DNA of 64,000 nucleotides from Bacteroidia bacterium (GCA_033391075.1 JAWPMV010000001.1:2418001-2482000); one strand, 5' to 3'; counted from the stretch's first letter, positions 1 through 16,736 are shown. The notes: generated from the sequence alone by a model not told the origin. Numbers and translations are program-made.

Positions 1-2691
1 GATAATGAAAGAGAAAAGAGTGATCCCGAAGAGGAAAATTACATAGAAAAGACCCTGGACCTGGCGAATAAAATTCGTGCGATAAGAAAAAGGTTTGAAG
101 GGGGAATGGAAGAATTGGGCAGACAGGGACAAGAGCTTATGCAGTCCCATGGGCTAAGTGTGGAAGATTTTTCCTATGGGAAATCTGGAGTAGCCAACCA
201 TTTTTTTAAAGTTCAGGATAATAAGCTCTCCGTCAGTAAAAAATATGAACCCACGAAACGAGCTCTCTCAGCCAGAGAGGATATAGAAGCCTGGATCCCC
301 AAAAAATCAGATAAGCAGGAGCAATTACGAGCTTGTGTCCAGGGAGGTTTACTTGATGTACTGGATAATATGATCATGCTCTTTGAAAATGAGTATGCTA
401 CCTATAATACAGCCTTACAGGCCTCTATGAGTATCTATTCTTTTGGACTCCTCACAGAGTTGAAAGAAAGACTCACAGCTTACAGAAAAGAAAATGGCCA
501 ATTGATCATTTCAGATACAGGCCTGCTTTTGCAAAAAGTTATCAAAGATCCCTACCATGCTCCCTTTATTTATGAAAAAGTAGGGACTCGATTTCAGCAT
601 TTTCTCCTGGACGAATTTCAGGATACCTCCAATATGCAATGGCGGAATATGATGCCTCTTCTGGCAGAAGCTCTGGCATATGACAACTTTAGTATGCTGG
701 TGGGAGATGCAAAACAATCGATATATAGATGGAGAAATGGCAATATGGACTTGCTCCTGAACAAAGTGGAGAAAGATATTAAATCCATTGTCAATCAGGA
801 CGTAACTACAGAGAATCTGGATAATAACTGGCGGACAGCTCGGGAGATCGTGGAGTTTAATAACTGGTTATTTCTTTCTGCGGCAGATTATCTGGCCAAA
901 GACCGGGAAGATCCGGCTTTTGGGCAAATGATGCTGGCAGCTTATGGAGGAGTGACTCAGCATCCCAAAAAAGAAAAATATCCAGGCTATGTCTCCGTGG
1001 AATTTCTGGAAGACTTATCCAAAAGAAGAGATGATCCTGGTCCAAAGTGGGAAGAACAGGCCGAAAGGCGATGCATGGAACTGATTTGGTCTCTGGGGAA
1101 TGAAGGCTTTGAGCCTCATGAGATCACCCTTTTGGTGCGCAATAATATCCACGGCACCCGACTGGCAACTTATCTGCAAAGAGAAAGTGCCAGAGAAGCT
1201 AAACCCATCAAGGTGGTTTCAGCAGACTCCCTCCTGATTGCCAGTGATCCCAAAGTTCAGTTTCTCTATGCCCTGCTTCAATACCTCAATTATGAATCTA
1301 ATGAGGTGAATTCTGCAGCGCTTTCCTATTACTACAACCTGGTAGTAGAAGGAGAAGCTTCTCATCATGCCGTATTCCTCAAATCAGATGAGGAAATCCT
1401 GCCTGAATTTGAGAAGTACAAAAAGGAACTGAGAAGAAAATCCATATACGAATGCATAGAAAGGCTTTGTAACCTTTTCTCTCCCTTATTGGATGCCAAT
1501 GCTTATATCCAGGGTTTCAAGGATGCAGCTTTGAGCTATGCAGCCGAAAATGATCCGGGGATAAGTTCCTTCCTCGAATGGTGGGAGACTGAAAAAAATA
1601 GCCGGGCCATCGCGAGTGCAGCTAGTAGAGATGCGGTCCAGATTATGACCATTCATAAATCTAAAGGCCTGGAATTTCCCATTGTTATCCTTCCTTATGC
1701 AGAATGGGAAATGCCTCCCAAAGCTCGGGGATATTTATGGGTAAACCCCCAAAAAGCTCCTTATCAAAGTTTTGAATTCTTTCCCATGAAGCTTTCGGGT
1801 CAATTGGAAAGCAGTTGGTTCAAGGAAGAGTATCAACAAGAGGAACAAAGTTCTTATTTGGATAATCTGAATTTGCTTTATGTTTCCTTGACTCGTCCCA
1901 AATACAGACTCTATCTTCTGAGTAAGGCTCCTTCCATTGACAAAAGAAGTGGACAGCCCAAAATGCCGACAGACTTCAAGAGTATTTCAAAACTATTATA
2001 TCGAATTTTAAAAGAAGATCCCCTGGATGGATTAAAAGAAGATGAAGATTTCCATTTTAGTTACGGTCAACTAATGGGACGAGAGGAAATTCGCAGCATT
2101 GAAGGAAGCAAGGAATCTTCCTTAGGGAAATCCCTGGAGATGAAGCGAAATGAGGAAAGCATTCCCAATTGGAATGATATGCTTAGGATTCGCTTTAGCA
2201 GCAATCAATTTCTCAATACAGAAATCCGAAAACGAGACGAAGTCATCAATCGGGGAGAATTGCTTCACGAAGGTCTGGCATTTATAGAGGAAAAGGGCGA
2301 TTTGGATAAAGCCGTTCGGAAACTGGTACTGAGAGGAATGCTAAAAGAAGAGGAATTTGAGAAAGCAAAAGCCGAATTGCAGCAAATCATCAGCAATGAT
2401 AAAGTCAAACACTGGTTTGAGGGAGCCTATGAAGTGAAAAATGAAGCCGAGATTATTCTTTCCAATGGGAAAGTTTTTCGACCAGATCGCGTAATGATCA
2501 AACAAAAGAAAGCCATATTGGTTGACTACAAAAGCGGAAAGCCCAATCGGAAATACCAATCACAAATGCAGGAATATATGCAAGCCGTGCTTGATCTCGG
2601 ATATACAGAAATAGAAGGTTATATCTATTACATCCTTCGGGGGGATTTGGAAAAAATTCCATTTAATCCTCAATTAGGTTTGCAATTGTAA
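1..2691 (+). CDS. UvrD/AddA-like DNA helicase-nuclease, 3' part
   Basis: The reading frame is open from the first base of the window, so the true start and the Walker A region lie upstream. About 896 residues are visible. Superfamily 1 helicase motifs are present in order: DEFQDT (Walker B, nt 610-627), GDAKQSIYRWR (motif III, from nt 703), TIHKSKGLEF (motif V, about nt 1648-1677) and LLYVSLTRPK (motif VI, about nt 1876-1905). The C-terminus carries a PD-(D/E)xK nuclease-like segment: a glutamate-bearing strand, then PDRV (about nt 2482) and ILVDYKSGK (about nt 2515-2541), as in RecB/AddA C-terminal domains. The likely role is processing of double-strand DNA ends for recombination. A RecB- or AddB-type partner would be expected upstream but is not in view. 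The hisG promoter overlaps its last codons. Confidence 0.85.
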   Translation, partial: DNEREKSDPEEENYIEKTLDLANKIRAIRKRFEGGMEELGRQGQELMQSHGLSVEDFSYGKSGVANHFFKVQDNKLSVSKKYEPTKRALSAREDIEAWIPKKSDKQEQLRACVQGGLLDVLDNMIMLFENEYATYNTALQASMSIYSFGLLTELKERLTAYRKENGQLIISDTGLLLQKVIKDPYHAPFIYEKVGTRFQHFLLDEFQDTSNMQWRNMMPLLAEALAYDNFSMLVGDAKQSIYRWRNGNMDLLLNKVEKDIKSIVNQDVTTENLDNNWRTAREIVEFNNWLFLSAADYLAKDREDPAFGQMMLAAYGGVTQHPKKEKYPGYVSVEFLEDLSKRRDDPGPKWEEQAERRCMELIWSLGNEGFEPHEITLLVRNNIHGTRLATYLQRESAREAKPIKVVSADSLLIASDPKVQFLYALLQYLNYESNEVNSAALSYYYNLVVEGEASHHAVFLKSDEEILPEFEKYKKELRRKSIYECIERLCNLFSPLLDANAYIQGFKDAALSYAAENDPGISSFLEWWETEKNSRAIASAASRDAVQIMTIHKSKGLEFPIVILPYAEWEMPPKARGYLWVNPQKAPYQSFEFFPMKLSGQLESSWFKEEYQQEEQSSYLDNLNLLYVSLTRPKYRLYLLSKAPSIDKRSGQPKMPTDFKSISKLLYRILKEDPLDGLKEDEDFHFSYGQLMGREEIRSIEGSKESSLGKSLEMKRNEESIPNWNDMLRIRFSSNQFLNTEIRKRDEVINRGELLHEGLAFIEEKGDLDKAVRKLVLRGMLKEEEFEKAKAELQQIISNDKVKHWFEGAYEVKNEAEIILSNGKVFRPDRVMIKQKKAILVDYKSGKPNRKYQSQMQEYMQAVLDLGYTEIEGYIYYILRGDLEKIPFNPQLGLQL

Positions 2692-2711
2692 AATGCACTC
2701 TGCTATATTTG
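2679..2711 (+). promoter_or_regulatory. Promoter of the histidine operon
   Basis: TTTG at 2679-2682 and TATATTTG at 2704-2711, separated by 21 bases, match the Bacteroidota -33 TTTG and -7 TAnnTTTG elements. The start of transcription would fall near 2716, only a few bases before the leader-peptide ATG at 2720, so the leader message would be almost leaderless. The -33 element lies inside the last codons of the helicase gene. Confidence 0.65.
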
Positions 2712-2719
2712 CGAGCATA

Positions 2720-2818
2720 ATGAATAGCCGATACACATATAGTCTCACCCCGATAGCTGAAGCTTCTTTTCAGCCAGCGGCTTTTCATGTTCATCATATC
2801 CACCATTCCTCCCTATAG
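2720..2818 (+). CDS. Histidine operon leader peptide (attenuator peptide)
   Basis: A 32-codon frame starts with ATG at 2720 and ends with TAG at 2816-2818. It contains five histidine codons within seven positions (HVHHIHH, nt 2786-2806), immediately before the left arm of an intrinsic terminator. It is far too short to be noticed as a gene, but its His density and place between the his promoter and hisG are the classic signs of a his leader peptide. Ribosome stalling at the His codons would cover the terminator's left arm (2805-2812) and let transcription continue into hisG. The codon pattern is seen directly; the mechanism is inferred. Confidence 0.7.
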   Translation: MNSRYTYSLTPIAEASFQPAAFHVHHIHHSSL

Positions 2819-2833
2819 GAGGAATTATTTTTT
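2805..2833 (+). terminator. Intrinsic terminator/attenuator before hisG
   Basis: A perfect 8-bp stem, ATTCCTCC (2805-2812) with GGAGGAAT (2818-2825), has a 5-base loop and is followed by six T residues (2828-2833). The leader peptide's last codons and stop lie within the hairpin. A second hairpin, ATTCCT-GAA-AGGAAT at 2871-2885, uses the same arm sequences and could in principle compete with it. A smaller upstream hairpin (GCTGAA 2756-2761 with TTCAGC 2769-2774) could act as a pause or alternative structure. Confidence 0.7.
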
Positions 2834-2911
2834 ATATCACCCTTTGCGGTTCTATCCGATATTTTTCAGCATTCCTGAAAGGAATCATTCATTAATCCAA
2901 TCAAAAAATAA

Positions 2912-3769
2912 ATGGAAACCTTAAAACTGGCGGTACAAAAATCAGGGAGATTGAGCGAAAAAAGTTTGAAGTTTATCAAAGAGTGCGGGATTTCCTATGC
3001 ATGGAACAAAGCCAAACTAAAAACTCAATCCTACAATTTTCCCCTGGAACTGCTTTTCCTGCGGGATGATGATATCCCGAAATATGTGGCGGATGGTGTG
3101 GCAGATATAGGCATCATCGGAGAAAACGTGATGTTGGAGAAAGCAAAAAAAGTGGATCTGGTAGAGAGAATGGGATTTTCTCGTTGTAGACTTTCTGTAG
3201 CAGTTCCTCAATCAGCCAACTATAACGGAATCACTGATCTTAATGGTAAAAAGATCGCAACTTCCTATCCTAATATCCTGCAAAAGCATCTGGAAGAACA
3301 GGGAGTTTCTGCGGATATTCACGAAATCAGTGGCTCAGTTGAGATTGCTCCCAGCATCGGTTTGGCAGATGCCGTTTGTGATCTGGTATCTACCGGAAGT
3401 ACCCTGCTGAGTAATGGACTGAAGGAAGTAGAAGTCATCTTGCGCTCAGAGGCAGTGATGATTGCCACTCCTGAGCTTTCACCCGCGAAGCAGGAGATTC
3501 TGGATAAACTCCTTTTTCGGGTTAAATCAGCGCTTCGAGCACAAAATTATAAATACATTTTGATGAATGCTCCCAATTCTGCCATCGGGAAAATAGCCAA
3601 CATCCTGCCCGGGATGCGCAGCCCAACGGTAACTCCTTTGGAAGAGCAAGGTTGGAGTTCTGTGCACACAGTAGTTAAGGAAGATGATTTTTGGGACGTA
3701 ATTGAGAATTTGAGGAAGGTCGGTGCCGAAGGCATACTGGTTATTCCTATCGAAAAAATGATTCTTTAG
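2912..3769 (+). CDS. hisG: ATP phosphoribosyltransferase (long form)
   Basis: Catalyses the first committed step of histidine synthesis, joining ATP and PRPP in the cytoplasm. At 285 residues it is the long HisG type: a catalytic periplasmic-binding-protein-like fold (about residues 1-210, with VADGVADIGIIGEN near 58-72 and the PRPP-binding stretch DLVSTGSTL near 155-165) followed by a C-terminal regulatory domain (about 215-285) that usually binds histidine for feedback inhibition. It is the first structural gene of the operon, 93 bases after the leader-peptide stop. Its stop is two bases from the hisD start. Confidence 0.96.
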   Translation: METLKLAVQKSGRLSEKSLKFIKECGISYAWNKAKLKTQSYNFPLELLFLRDDDIPKYVADGVADIGIIGENVMLEKAKKVDLVERMGFSRCRLSVAVPQSANYNGITDLNGKKIATSYPNILQKHLEEQGVSADIHEISGSVEIAPSIGLADAVCDLVSTGSTLLSNGLKEVEVILRSEAVMIATPELSPAKQEILDKLLFRVKSALRAQNYKYILMNAPNSAIGKIANILPGMRSPTVTPLEEQGWSSVHTVVKEDDFWDVIENLRKVGAEGILVIPIEKMIL

Positions 3770-3771
3770 CC

Positions 3772-5058
3772 ATGCAATATATAGTCAATCCCGCTAGAGA
3801 AGATTGGGCAGAATTATTGAAGAGACCCGTCTTCGAACAAAAAGACTTAGAATCACGAGTCCAACCTATTTTGGATGCAGTGAAGCATAAAGGAGATGAA
3901 GCCTTAAAAGAGTTTTCTTCCAAATTCGATCAGGTGGATTTGAAAGACTTGAAGCTGAGTCCTGCAGAAATAGAAGAAGCTATTGCAAAGGTGCCGGAAA
4001 GTCTCAAGGCAGCAATTGCTTTAGCCCGAAAAAATATCGAACGCTTTCACGCCAGTCAGAAAGAGGAAATACAGGTGGTTGAAACCCAGCCAGGAATCAG
4101 GTGCTGGAGAAAATCAGTGCCTATTACGAAAGTAGGACTTTACATTCCCGGAGGAACAGCTCCGCTCTTTTCGACCATCCTTATGCTGGGAGTACCTGCT
4201 GCAATAGCCGGCTGCAAAGAAATTGTCCTTTGTACCCCTCCCGGAAAAAAAGGAGAAGTCAATCCCGCTATTTTGTATACCGCCAATTTGCTGGGTATTT
4301 CTTCTATTTTCAAAGTGGGTGGTGCGCAGGCAGTAGCGGCCATGGCCTATGGGACAGAAAGTATTCCTCAGGTATATAAAATCTTTGGACCGGGGAACCA
4401 ATACGTAACCATGGCCAAGCAATTGATTGGAAAGGAAGGAGTAGCAATAGATATGCCTGCAGGACCTTCTGAAGTTGCAGTAGTAATTGATGAAAGTGCT
4501 CATGCAGGATTTGTGGCTGCTGATCTGCTATCTCAAGCAGAACATGGAGTTGACAGTCAGGTACTTTTGGTCGGCAATTCTCAGGAAAAGATTGAGGAGA
4601 TAGAAAAGGAAGTCGAAAGACAGCTTTCTGAACTTCCCAGAGAAGAAATTGCACGTGCCGCCATAGCCAATAGTAAAAGTATCTTTCTGGAAGAGGAGGA
4701 AGCCATCATTGATCTGATCAATGAATATGCGCCAGAACACCTCATCCTTTCAGTCAGGAATGATGAAGAAATGGCGGAGAAAATTTTTAATGCCGGATCC
4801 GTATTTCTCGGGCATCTGACCCCTGAAAGTGTAGGCGATTATGCTTCTGGAACCAATCACACCTTGCCGACCAATGGTTTTGCCAAAGCCTACAGTGGTG
4901 TTTCTCTGGATTCTTTCGTCAAAAAAATCACCTTTCAAAAACTCACAGAAGAAGGAATCAAAAACCTGGGACCAGCTGTGGAGGAAATGGCAGAAGCAGA
5001 AGAATTAATAGCTCACAAAAGAGCGGTATCTATCAGATTAGCAAGCCTGAAGTCATGA
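3772..5058 (+). CDS. hisD: Histidinol dehydrogenase
   Basis: Catalyses the last two steps of the pathway, NAD-dependent oxidation of L-histidinol to histidine. The 428-residue length is normal. Zinc-site and catalytic residues are visible: Q255 and H258 in SQAEHG, the catalytic pair E322-H323 in APEHL, and H363 in SGTNHT. It starts two bases after hisG and overlaps the hisC start by four bases (ATGA type), so translation is probably coupled. Confidence 0.97.
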   Translation: MQYIVNPAREDWAELLKRPVFEQKDLESRVQPILDAVKHKGDEALKEFSSKFDQVDLKDLKLSPAEIEEAIAKVPESLKAAIALARKNIERFHASQKEEIQVVETQPGIRCWRKSVPITKVGLYIPGGTAPLFSTILMLGVPAAIAGCKEIVLCTPPGKKGEVNPAILYTANLLGISSIFKVGGAQAVAAMAYGTESIPQVYKIFGPGNQYVTMAKQLIGKEGVAIDMPAGPSEVAVVIDESAHAGFVAADLLSQAEHGVDSQVLLVGNSQEKIEEIEKEVERQLSELPREEIARAAIANSKSIFLEEEEAIIDLINEYAPEHLILSVRNDEEMAEKIFNAGSVFLGHLTPESVGDYASGTNHTLPTNGFAKAYSGVSLDSFVKKITFQKLTEEGIKNLGPAVEEMAEAEELIAHKRAVSIRLASLKS

Positions 5059-7344: not shown

Positions 7345-7929
7345 TCAGGCGGTCTTTACCAATTCTTTAACTTCCTGAAGATGTTTGTTCTTTTTAGCCT
7401 GACGCATATTGATGGCCGTAGGAGTAAAGTAATTATGATTAGAAAGAAACTTTACCTGAAGTTTATTCCAATCCACTTCATTCTTTACAATGCCTTGATG
7501 AAGAAATTCTCGATAAAGGGTATCTCCGATATGGTAGAAATCTTTTCTGCCCAAATAAAAGAGATCCGCATCACACAGGATTTGTTCGAGAAGGGTAGTG
7601 GGAGTTTGCGGAATTCTGGTTGCCATGATCATTCCACAAATCTTTCTGATTTGAAATTTGCTGTAGCCAAATTTCCGAAGACTTTCTTTGGCAATATCGC
7701 AACCCGCAGCTTCATGATTTTGATAGGTTTTTGTGAATCCGGAATCATGATAAAGGGCAGCAGTTTCAAGCAAAATCAGGTCCTCTTCTCCGACATTTTC
7801 AGAACGGGCAATCTCTATCGCGGACTGGCAAACATCCAGGGTATGATGCAATCCATGATAAGTAAGGTTGCGGGGCAACTCTTCACGAAGCTTTTGGAGA
7901 ATAAAGACTTTTGCTGCTTGAAAATCCAT
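7345..7929 (-). CDS. HD-domain phosphohydrolase, antisense within the his operon
   Basis: A 194-residue cytoplasmic protein with the HD-superfamily metal motif: H29 (in GLHHT), the pair H61-D62 (in ALYHDSGF) and a late aspartate (D120 or D122 in CDADLF). Such proteins hydrolyse phosphomonoesters or phosphodiesters of nucleotides; the substrate cannot be told from the sequence. The gene lies between hisB and hisH on the opposite strand, seven bases from the hisB stop and 32 bases from the hisH start. Any transcript running from hisB to hisH therefore crosses it in antisense. Its codon use does not look foreign. Confidence 0.85.
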   Translation of the reverse strand: MDFQAAKVFILQKLREELPRNLTYHGLHHTLDVCQSAIEIARSENVGEEDLILLETAALYHDSGFTKTYQNHEAAGCDIAKESLRKFGYSKFQIRKICGMIMATRIPQTPTTLLEQILCDADLFYLGRKDFYHIGDTLYREFLHQGIVKNEVDWNKLQVKFLSNHNYFTPTAINMRQAKKNKHLQEVKELVKTA

Positions 7930-16284: not shown

Positions 16285-16654
16285 GGGGACGACACGGCAT
16301 CGACGGGATTGACTCGTTAAGATGTAAGCATGCAGTGGTTCGTAGAGGTACCACTTAAATCCACGTCTGCAATATTTTAATTGGCGAAAGAAATTTTGCG
16401 CTAGCTGCATAGTTAGACTATTCAACTAGATGTTCTGCAGAATATGTTGACTGTACATGTTTTGTAAAGGACACATCATCCTTACAGTTTGCTGCCGGCA
16501 CTCGCCATGATGCCTGCAAAAGATAAAGGTGGCAACCTCCTATCAGAGCGCCCTGTTGCTCGGGTTTCTGACGGGAAAACAATAGAGCAAATAAGCATGT
16601 AGAAAGTCTTATACCAGCTCTCTCCGGACGAGGGTTCGACTCCCTCCGTCTCCA
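16285..16654 (+). ncRNA. ssrA: Transfer-messenger RNA
   Basis: The 5' end GGGGACGACACGGCATCGAC and the 3' end GGTTCGACTCCCTCCGTCTCC are the hallmark tmRNA tRNA-like termini; GGGGACG pairs with CGTCTCC to form the acceptor stem. The tag-coding frame at 16383-16412 reads GERNFALAA followed by TAG (preceded by the alanine supplied by the charged tmRNA), closely matching Bacteroidota tags. The gene ends at the discriminator A (16654), followed by CAT, so the CCA tail is not encoded and must be added by the CCA-adding enzyme. tmRNA rescues stalled ribosomes together with SmpB. Confidence 0.96.
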
Positions 16655-16736
16655 CATAAATATTGATTATTAATGCTTTATGATCATTATTCTGAAGTAA
16701 AACATTAAATAATATTAGTCAAGTATTTAAAGAATA

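Follow-up and report, generated by a model that had tools for sequence, protein, structure and literature searches.

In the standard account of amino acid attenuation, the leader RNA chooses between a terminator and an antiterminator. In the enteric his leader (Rfam RF00514, E. coli hisL), a His-rich leader ORF lies directly 5' of an operon that begins with hisG, and the position of the ribosome is the sensor. Two further E. coli leaders bear on what follows. The pyrBI leader has a terminator without an antiterminator; a ribosome that trails the polymerase closely blocks this terminator directly, and UTP is sensed through polymerase pausing; in tnaC, stalling is brought about by the nascent peptide and free tryptophan. 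For Flavobacterium psychrophilum, leader-peptide attenuation has been inferred upstream of operons for amino acid biosynthesis, and a structured 5' element of hisG that lacks an Rfam family has been noted in Flavobacteriaceae (PMC9723704). The main text of a terminator-based survey makes no mention of Bacteroidetes by name (PMC2965389).

Here we describe the hisG leader in a 64-kb stretch of DNA (hereafter the window) from a 9.5 Mb Bacteroidota genome. It shares with the enteric leader a His-rich ORF directly 5' of a hisG-first operon, and would likewise use ribosome position as its sensor. It differs in being near-leaderless, in carrying a single hairpin on the end of the ORF, and in having neither a separate antiterminator nor a 3:4 terminator. 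A preliminary description of this DNA had set it apart from the enteric leader, with its separate antiterminator, and that distinction holds. RF00514 gives no match; relaxing the cut-off to E up to 5 brings in only unrelated chance matches. At the gathering threshold, no known Rfam family falls on the leader, the sole hit in the window being a tmRNA gene at 16285-16657 (+ strand; RF00023, 127.9 bits). We found no description of the arrangement in the literature searched, which consisted largely of papers available without subscription.

Anatomy of the hisG leader

The operon, hisGDCB-HAFIE, begins with hisG (2912-3769, + strand), followed by hisD (start at 3772), hisC (5055), hisB (6198), hisH (about 7911), hisA (8549), hisF (9273) and hisIE (10070). 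All are named by NCBIfam models scoring above cut-off except hisH, which is named from its ORF and its position in the operon. The only interruption, between hisB and hisH, is an oppositely oriented ORF for an HDIG-domain metal-dependent hydrolase (7345-7929, - strand). Transcription of the operon may run through this antisense gene, or the operon may be split there.

A promoter that perfectly matches the Bacteroidota consensus occupies 2679-2711 (+ strand), with a TTTG -33 box at 2679-2682, a 21-nt spacer and a -7 box, TATATTTG, at 2704-2711. It overlaps the 3' end of the upstream RecB-like helicase gene, whose stop codon ends at 2691. The leader ATG at 2720 lies 8 nt past the TTTG of the -7 box, making the transcript near-leaderless, and opens an ORF (2720-2818, + strand) of 32 codons plus a TAG at 2816-2818 that encodes MNSRYTYSLTPIAEASFQPAAFHVHHIHHSSL. 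Five of seven consecutive codons near its end (HVHHIHH) specify His, with starts at 2786, 2792, 2795, 2801 and 2804. Within the ORF, about 11 nt 5' of the first His codon, is a hairpin that we call H0 (GCTGAA/TTCAGC, 2756-2774, + strand; -6.0 kcal/mol by RNA folding). The principal hairpin, H1 (2805-2825, + strand), has an 8-bp stem formed by ATTCCTCC (2805-2812) and GGAGGAAT (2818-2825) around a CTATA loop; the first two bases of the stem belong to the final His codon, and the TAG straddles the loop and the 3' arm. Directly 3' of H1 lies a U-run, TATTTTTT (2826-2833, + strand), which makes it a borderline intrinsic terminator, followed by a conserved motif, ATATCACCC (2834-2842, + strand), and a weak second hairpin, H2 (CGG-TTCTAT-CCG, 2847-2858, + strand). 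The leader region as a whole folds more stably than expected (z = -3.17), with none of 200 shuffles as stable.

The preliminary description had proposed the full promoter, the 32-codon HVHHIHH frame and the 8-bp stem with its T-run, with the frame overlapping the left arm of the stem and the stop inside the hairpin, and all of this is borne out by the sequence. The locus has the layout of a leader-peptide attenuator, an ORF rich in cognate codons ahead of the cognate operon. Together with the conservation of the leader across relatives described below, this supports the original reading of a near-leaderless histidine attenuator, and we regard His-responsive leader-peptide attenuation as very likely.

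Other leaders in the same genome have a classical appearance. Upstream of trpE (about 1260-1500 of locus L335), a TATATTTG box is followed by a leader, MKVLQNTNFWWW... (MKVLQNTNFWWWHGSDTES), and by a GGGCTTGC...GCAAGCCC-AUUUUUU hairpin just 5' of trpE, altogether a classical-looking trp attenuator. The leuA gene is preceded by CCTGCCTGTTTAGGCAGGTTTTTTG, and on the reverse strand of locus L333 a strong hairpin, CCTGCCTGTTTAGGCAGG, followed by TTTTTTG, lies about 100 nt 5' of leuA.

Two leader architectures at hisG in Bacteroidota

For comparison, hisG upstream regions were taken from named genomes, 60 relatives, 326 genomes of the class and 196 genomes of family f21 (Mangrovivirga, Roseivirga and Cyclobacteriaceae among its members), giving 288 distinct regions from Bacteroidota and 254 classified leaders. 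Most of the 288 contain a His-rich leader ORF. Among leaders with a proximal hairpin, a TAnnTTTG box precedes the in-frame leader ATG in 73 of 84, mostly at a distance of 6-10 nt (chance expectation, 0.6% per 20 nt), and near-leaderless starts are therefore the rule in this group.

At least 128 of the regions are classical attenuators, which we call type A. They share with the window their promoter type, leader ORF and gene, and a part of them (Chitinophaga is one example of the type) also have a hairpin near the His codons. They have a distal AAGGCTTACC..GGTAAGCCTT-U intrinsic terminator, preceded in many by a short CTTACC/GGTAAG pairing after the His codons; the median terminator score d is +35, and in 62% a segment complementary to the terminator 5' arm, the antiterminator, reaches z < -2. 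Type B, in contrast, has lost or never had both the distal terminator and the complementary segment 2. Its 56 core members include the window, four leaders of the same family (L082, L083, L003 and L004) and many from Cytophagales; a further leader of the window's family, L002, is type B-like and falls outside the scripted set owing to a weaker His cluster. In type B, the final His codon is where H1 begins. The leader ORF stops within or next to the loop of H1, or, in L004, just 3' of the hairpin after the ORF has read through it. The sequence ATATCRCCC (CACCC in Roseivirga-like members) follows 9-11 nt 3' of H1, at a fixed distance, and is itself followed by a weak H2 of variable sequence, stronger in relatives than in the window (CGGG/CCCG, GGCTGT/ACAGCC, GCGGCC/GGCTGC). 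We can only guess that ATATCRCCC is a pause site or a contact for a protein or Rho. Hairpins resembling H0 (<= -5) occur in 38% of type B leaders versus 10% of shuffles, a modest enrichment, and H0 may be a hairpin at which RNA polymerase pauses.

In the hisG tree, all type B genes fall in one half, where no type A gene is found; support for the split is moderate (84), and the type B half also holds leaders with neither feature. Two members of the window's GTDB family differ: L088 has a classical type A leader and a hisG on the type A side of the tree, and L085 has no His leader, which suggests that his operons or leaders have been exchanged within the family.

Some leaders fit neither type. 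Eight from the Flavobacteriaceae-like family f47 (L155, L200-L203 and L205-L207) show a third arrangement, in which a hairpin over the His codons and stop (ATCGCC..GGCGAT, for example) is followed by a conserved GTTTCTACGYGAAAY hairpin, and a strong terminator is lacking. Several in family f21 (L259, L260, L269, L270, L274, L278, L283, L287 and others) have neither a strong H1 nor a terminator, and short, C/T-rich, G-poor spacers up to hisG. Within type B, one subgroup (L218, L221-L225, L229, L230, L232-L237 and L241-L245) conserves GATACTAAACGTATATTGCATNCATG at the start of hisG; in its likeness to the -7 box of Bacteroidota it could mark an additional promoter, downstream of the first, that yields a leaderless hisG mRNA.

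The hairpin itself is a conserved element. In a set of 125 leaders that lack a distal terminator, chosen without regard to H1, a hairpin of <= -6 kcal/mol starting at the last His codon occurs in 54%, versus 2.2% of shuffles; in type A the same test gives 12% versus 1.6%. In arm swaps, 49 of 63 distinct 5' arms pair better with their own downstream sequence than foreign arms do, and the arms of the conserved hairpin show compensatory changes. The preliminary description had rightly named conserved His codons and covarying stems in relatives as a test, and both the codons and H1 are indeed conserved; base-pair counting on a covariance-model alignment (A3), however, did not rise above its shuffles, probably owing to differences in stem register and loop length, and the support for H1 therefore rests on the hairpin-enrichment and arm-swap tests. 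A covariance model (R1) identifies the hisG site in the window's genome at E = 5.5e-10, and no other site there is significant (next match, 0.097). Across 295 class genomes, R1 gives five matches below 1e-4 (G003, G000, which is the window's genome, G112, G254 and G141), all of them hisG leaders, and three lie outside its training set: L082 (in G003, E = 2.6e-11) and those in G254 and G141.

The termination step

If H1 is not simply a conserved structure, what does it do? By a d'Aubenton-Carafa-type score d, counting loops of up to 9 nt, the best register of H1 reaches d = +2.1, higher than any other intrinsic terminator on the window's + strand; sites above d = -8 on that strand number two, versus one or two in each of three shuffles. 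In the window, then, H1 can be an intrinsic terminator, judged on its score. Over the 56 type B leaders, d exceeds zero only in the window and in L083 (+7.4), followed by L238 (-3.4) and L082 (-18.7), with a class median of -51. The U-run therefore belongs to the window and its nearest relatives, and the hairpin to the class. H1 as a terminator is thus a local embellishment and not a conserved design, and we set aside its candidacy as a universally conserved terminator, nearly all relatives lacking the U-run. Nor is there a distal substitute: no terminator above d = -15 was found 3' of H1 among the 56 leaders, H1 itself being the sole candidate in the window, and H2, like an ATATC...GATAT helix, was rejected in this role since most members have no U-tract there. 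The antiterminator is likewise missing, as had been proposed. Duplex searches in the window give z = -0.29 for the H1 3' arm against downstream sequence and z = +1.23 for the 5' arm against upstream sequence, and only 2% of type B leaders reach z < -2, versus 62% in type A. The hairpin at 2871-2885, once suggested as a competitor of H1, does exist, but we reject that role: the U-run lies 5' of it, and neither of the two closest relatives, L082 and L083, shows such a hairpin. A candidate Shine-Dalgarno site, GGAGGAA (S2), was dropped, as Roseivirga-like members have AGAGAGAT or GAGATG in its place.

The simplest mechanism, and the one in the preliminary description, is that H1 and its U-run terminate transcription and that stalling on the His codons places the ribosome over the 5' arm and permits read-through, with nothing else needed. 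The score of H1 in the window, the lack of an antiterminator, the presence of a U-run also in L083 (and weakly in L082 and L238), and the reach of a ribosome held at the final two His codons, where it would cover the 5' arm, all speak for it, and the window, though not the class, has the anatomy of pyrBI, an intrinsic terminator overlapped by the leader ORF and no antiterminator. At the same time, a close ribosome means read-through in pyrBI, which is the wrong sign for control by an amino acid, and d is above zero in just two of the 56 hairpin-bearing leaders. We explored this in toy co-transcriptional models, which are crude, with assumed rates and footprints and one ribosome per transcript, taking as useful a lowering of termination on starvation by more than 0.15. 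Of 2461 random parameter sets for direct occlusion, none was useful, 1368 had the wrong sign and 1093 showed no clear effect. Crude as the models are, the sign problem follows from geometry: if the ribosome reaches about 12 nt past its A site, it covers the 5' arm (2805-2812) well only from the final two His codons, and stalls at 2786, 2792 and 2795 leave H1 largely free; an unstarved, coupled ribosome covers H1 too, because it is unable to reach the stop and leave before the polymerase passes the U-run. A study of a terminator placed close behind a gene reports that termination is almost fully suppressed when the two are several base pairs apart or less (PMC4824070), and this result agrees with the sign problem. 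Direct blocking of the terminator thus appears unlikely, and the preliminary description is not sustained on this point or on H1 as a conserved terminator.

Three other readings were weighed. H1, with ATATCRCCC downstream, might stabilise a pause of the polymerase, H0 having caused a pause before it, with the ribosome deciding between release and dismissal and a factor or H2 terminating; the fixed spacing from H1 to ATATC, the modest enrichment of H0 and the recurrence of H2 with differing sequence are consistent with this, but most members have no U-tract after H2 and the terminating step is left unspecified; we hold this reading, too, to be improbable. Less likely still is a classical attenuator whose antiterminator or terminator, formed by long-range or pseudoknotted pairing, has been missed. 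Most Bacteroidota relatives are classical and this same genome carries the classical-looking trp leader, yet duplex searches both upstream and downstream uncovered no excess pairing in type B, and the 56 leaders hold no distal terminator above d = -15. That there is no regulator at all, merely a chance His-rich ORF and the ordinary terminator of the helicase gene, whose end at 2691 makes an intergenic terminator expectable, is refuted by the joint conservation of promoter, leader, H1 and motif at hisG across genera, and we give it almost no credence.

What fits better than direct blocking is a delayed, probably Rho-type termination that follows release of the ribosome. When a factor such as Rho was allowed to load on the His/Ser-codon stretch after ribosome exit, 750 of 969 parameter sets gave a useful response and none the wrong sign. 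The genome encodes rho, and the RNA 3' of H1 is C-rich and G-poor: the skew (C-G)/(C+G) has a median of +0.25 in type B versus -0.06 in type A (p = 3e-10) and is +0.36 in the window, and type B still differs (p = 8e-4) from 17 related, Cyclobacteriaceae-like type A leaders (+0.06), although this skew is only a correlate, is partly set by codons and lineage, and is weak evidence. Exposed C-rich, G-poor RNA in a genome with rho recalls tnaC, again as weak evidence; as there, Rho would be denied access to the RNA while a ribosome sat at the 3' end of the leader ORF, but stalling in the window would come from scarce charged tRNA-His, and the use of Rho is only predicted. Two points weigh on the other side. 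A Rho step leaves the roles of H1, ATATCRCCC and H2 unexplained, and the window's own U-run, by its score, would suffice for intrinsic termination and counts against Rho. We consider the Rho-type step itself possible, at clearly less than an even chance.

An integrated model and its implications

Overall, we tentatively favour, at a little under even confidence, a model in which the window carries a His-sensing leader-peptide attenuator of a compact, Cytophagales-type class, with a delayed, probably Rho-type termination step and an added intrinsic element. The general course of such a response can be outlined. The mRNA from the conserved promoter is almost leaderless, and its first ORF has a late His cluster; progress of the ribosome on these codons would set whether RNA polymerase reaches hisG, a fate settled after, rather than during, synthesis of the hairpin. 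Consider a cell with ample histidine. The ribosome would complete the leader and depart at the stop codon inside H1, its exit uncovering a run of His/Ser codons poor in G and rich in C, along with the RNA downstream, upon which a delayed terminator, most likely Rho, would halt the polymerase before hisG. When histidine is scarce, a ribosome parked on the His codons would shield this stretch and transcription would continue. The U-run added to H1 in the window may provide intrinsic termination when leader translation is out of step.

Regardless of the terminating step, type B constitutes a phylogenetically coherent set of his leaders with neither terminator nor antiterminator in recognisable form, standing beside classical ones in the same phylum, and almost none of them would be picked up by a search that relies on terminators. 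Its leaders involve near-leaderless translation, the coupling of which to polymerase is little studied, and they offer a natural series built on one hairpin, with no, partial or full U-run, that could test what histidine sensing needs in a leader. A broader and more doubtful extension is that the Cytophagales and the window's family use, lineage-wide, his attenuators without antiterminator or intrinsic terminator in which the G-free His/Ser codons are the Rho-loading site. If that is true, a single short stretch of RNA would be both the amino acid sensor and the termination signal, and the U-run of the window a secondary addition.
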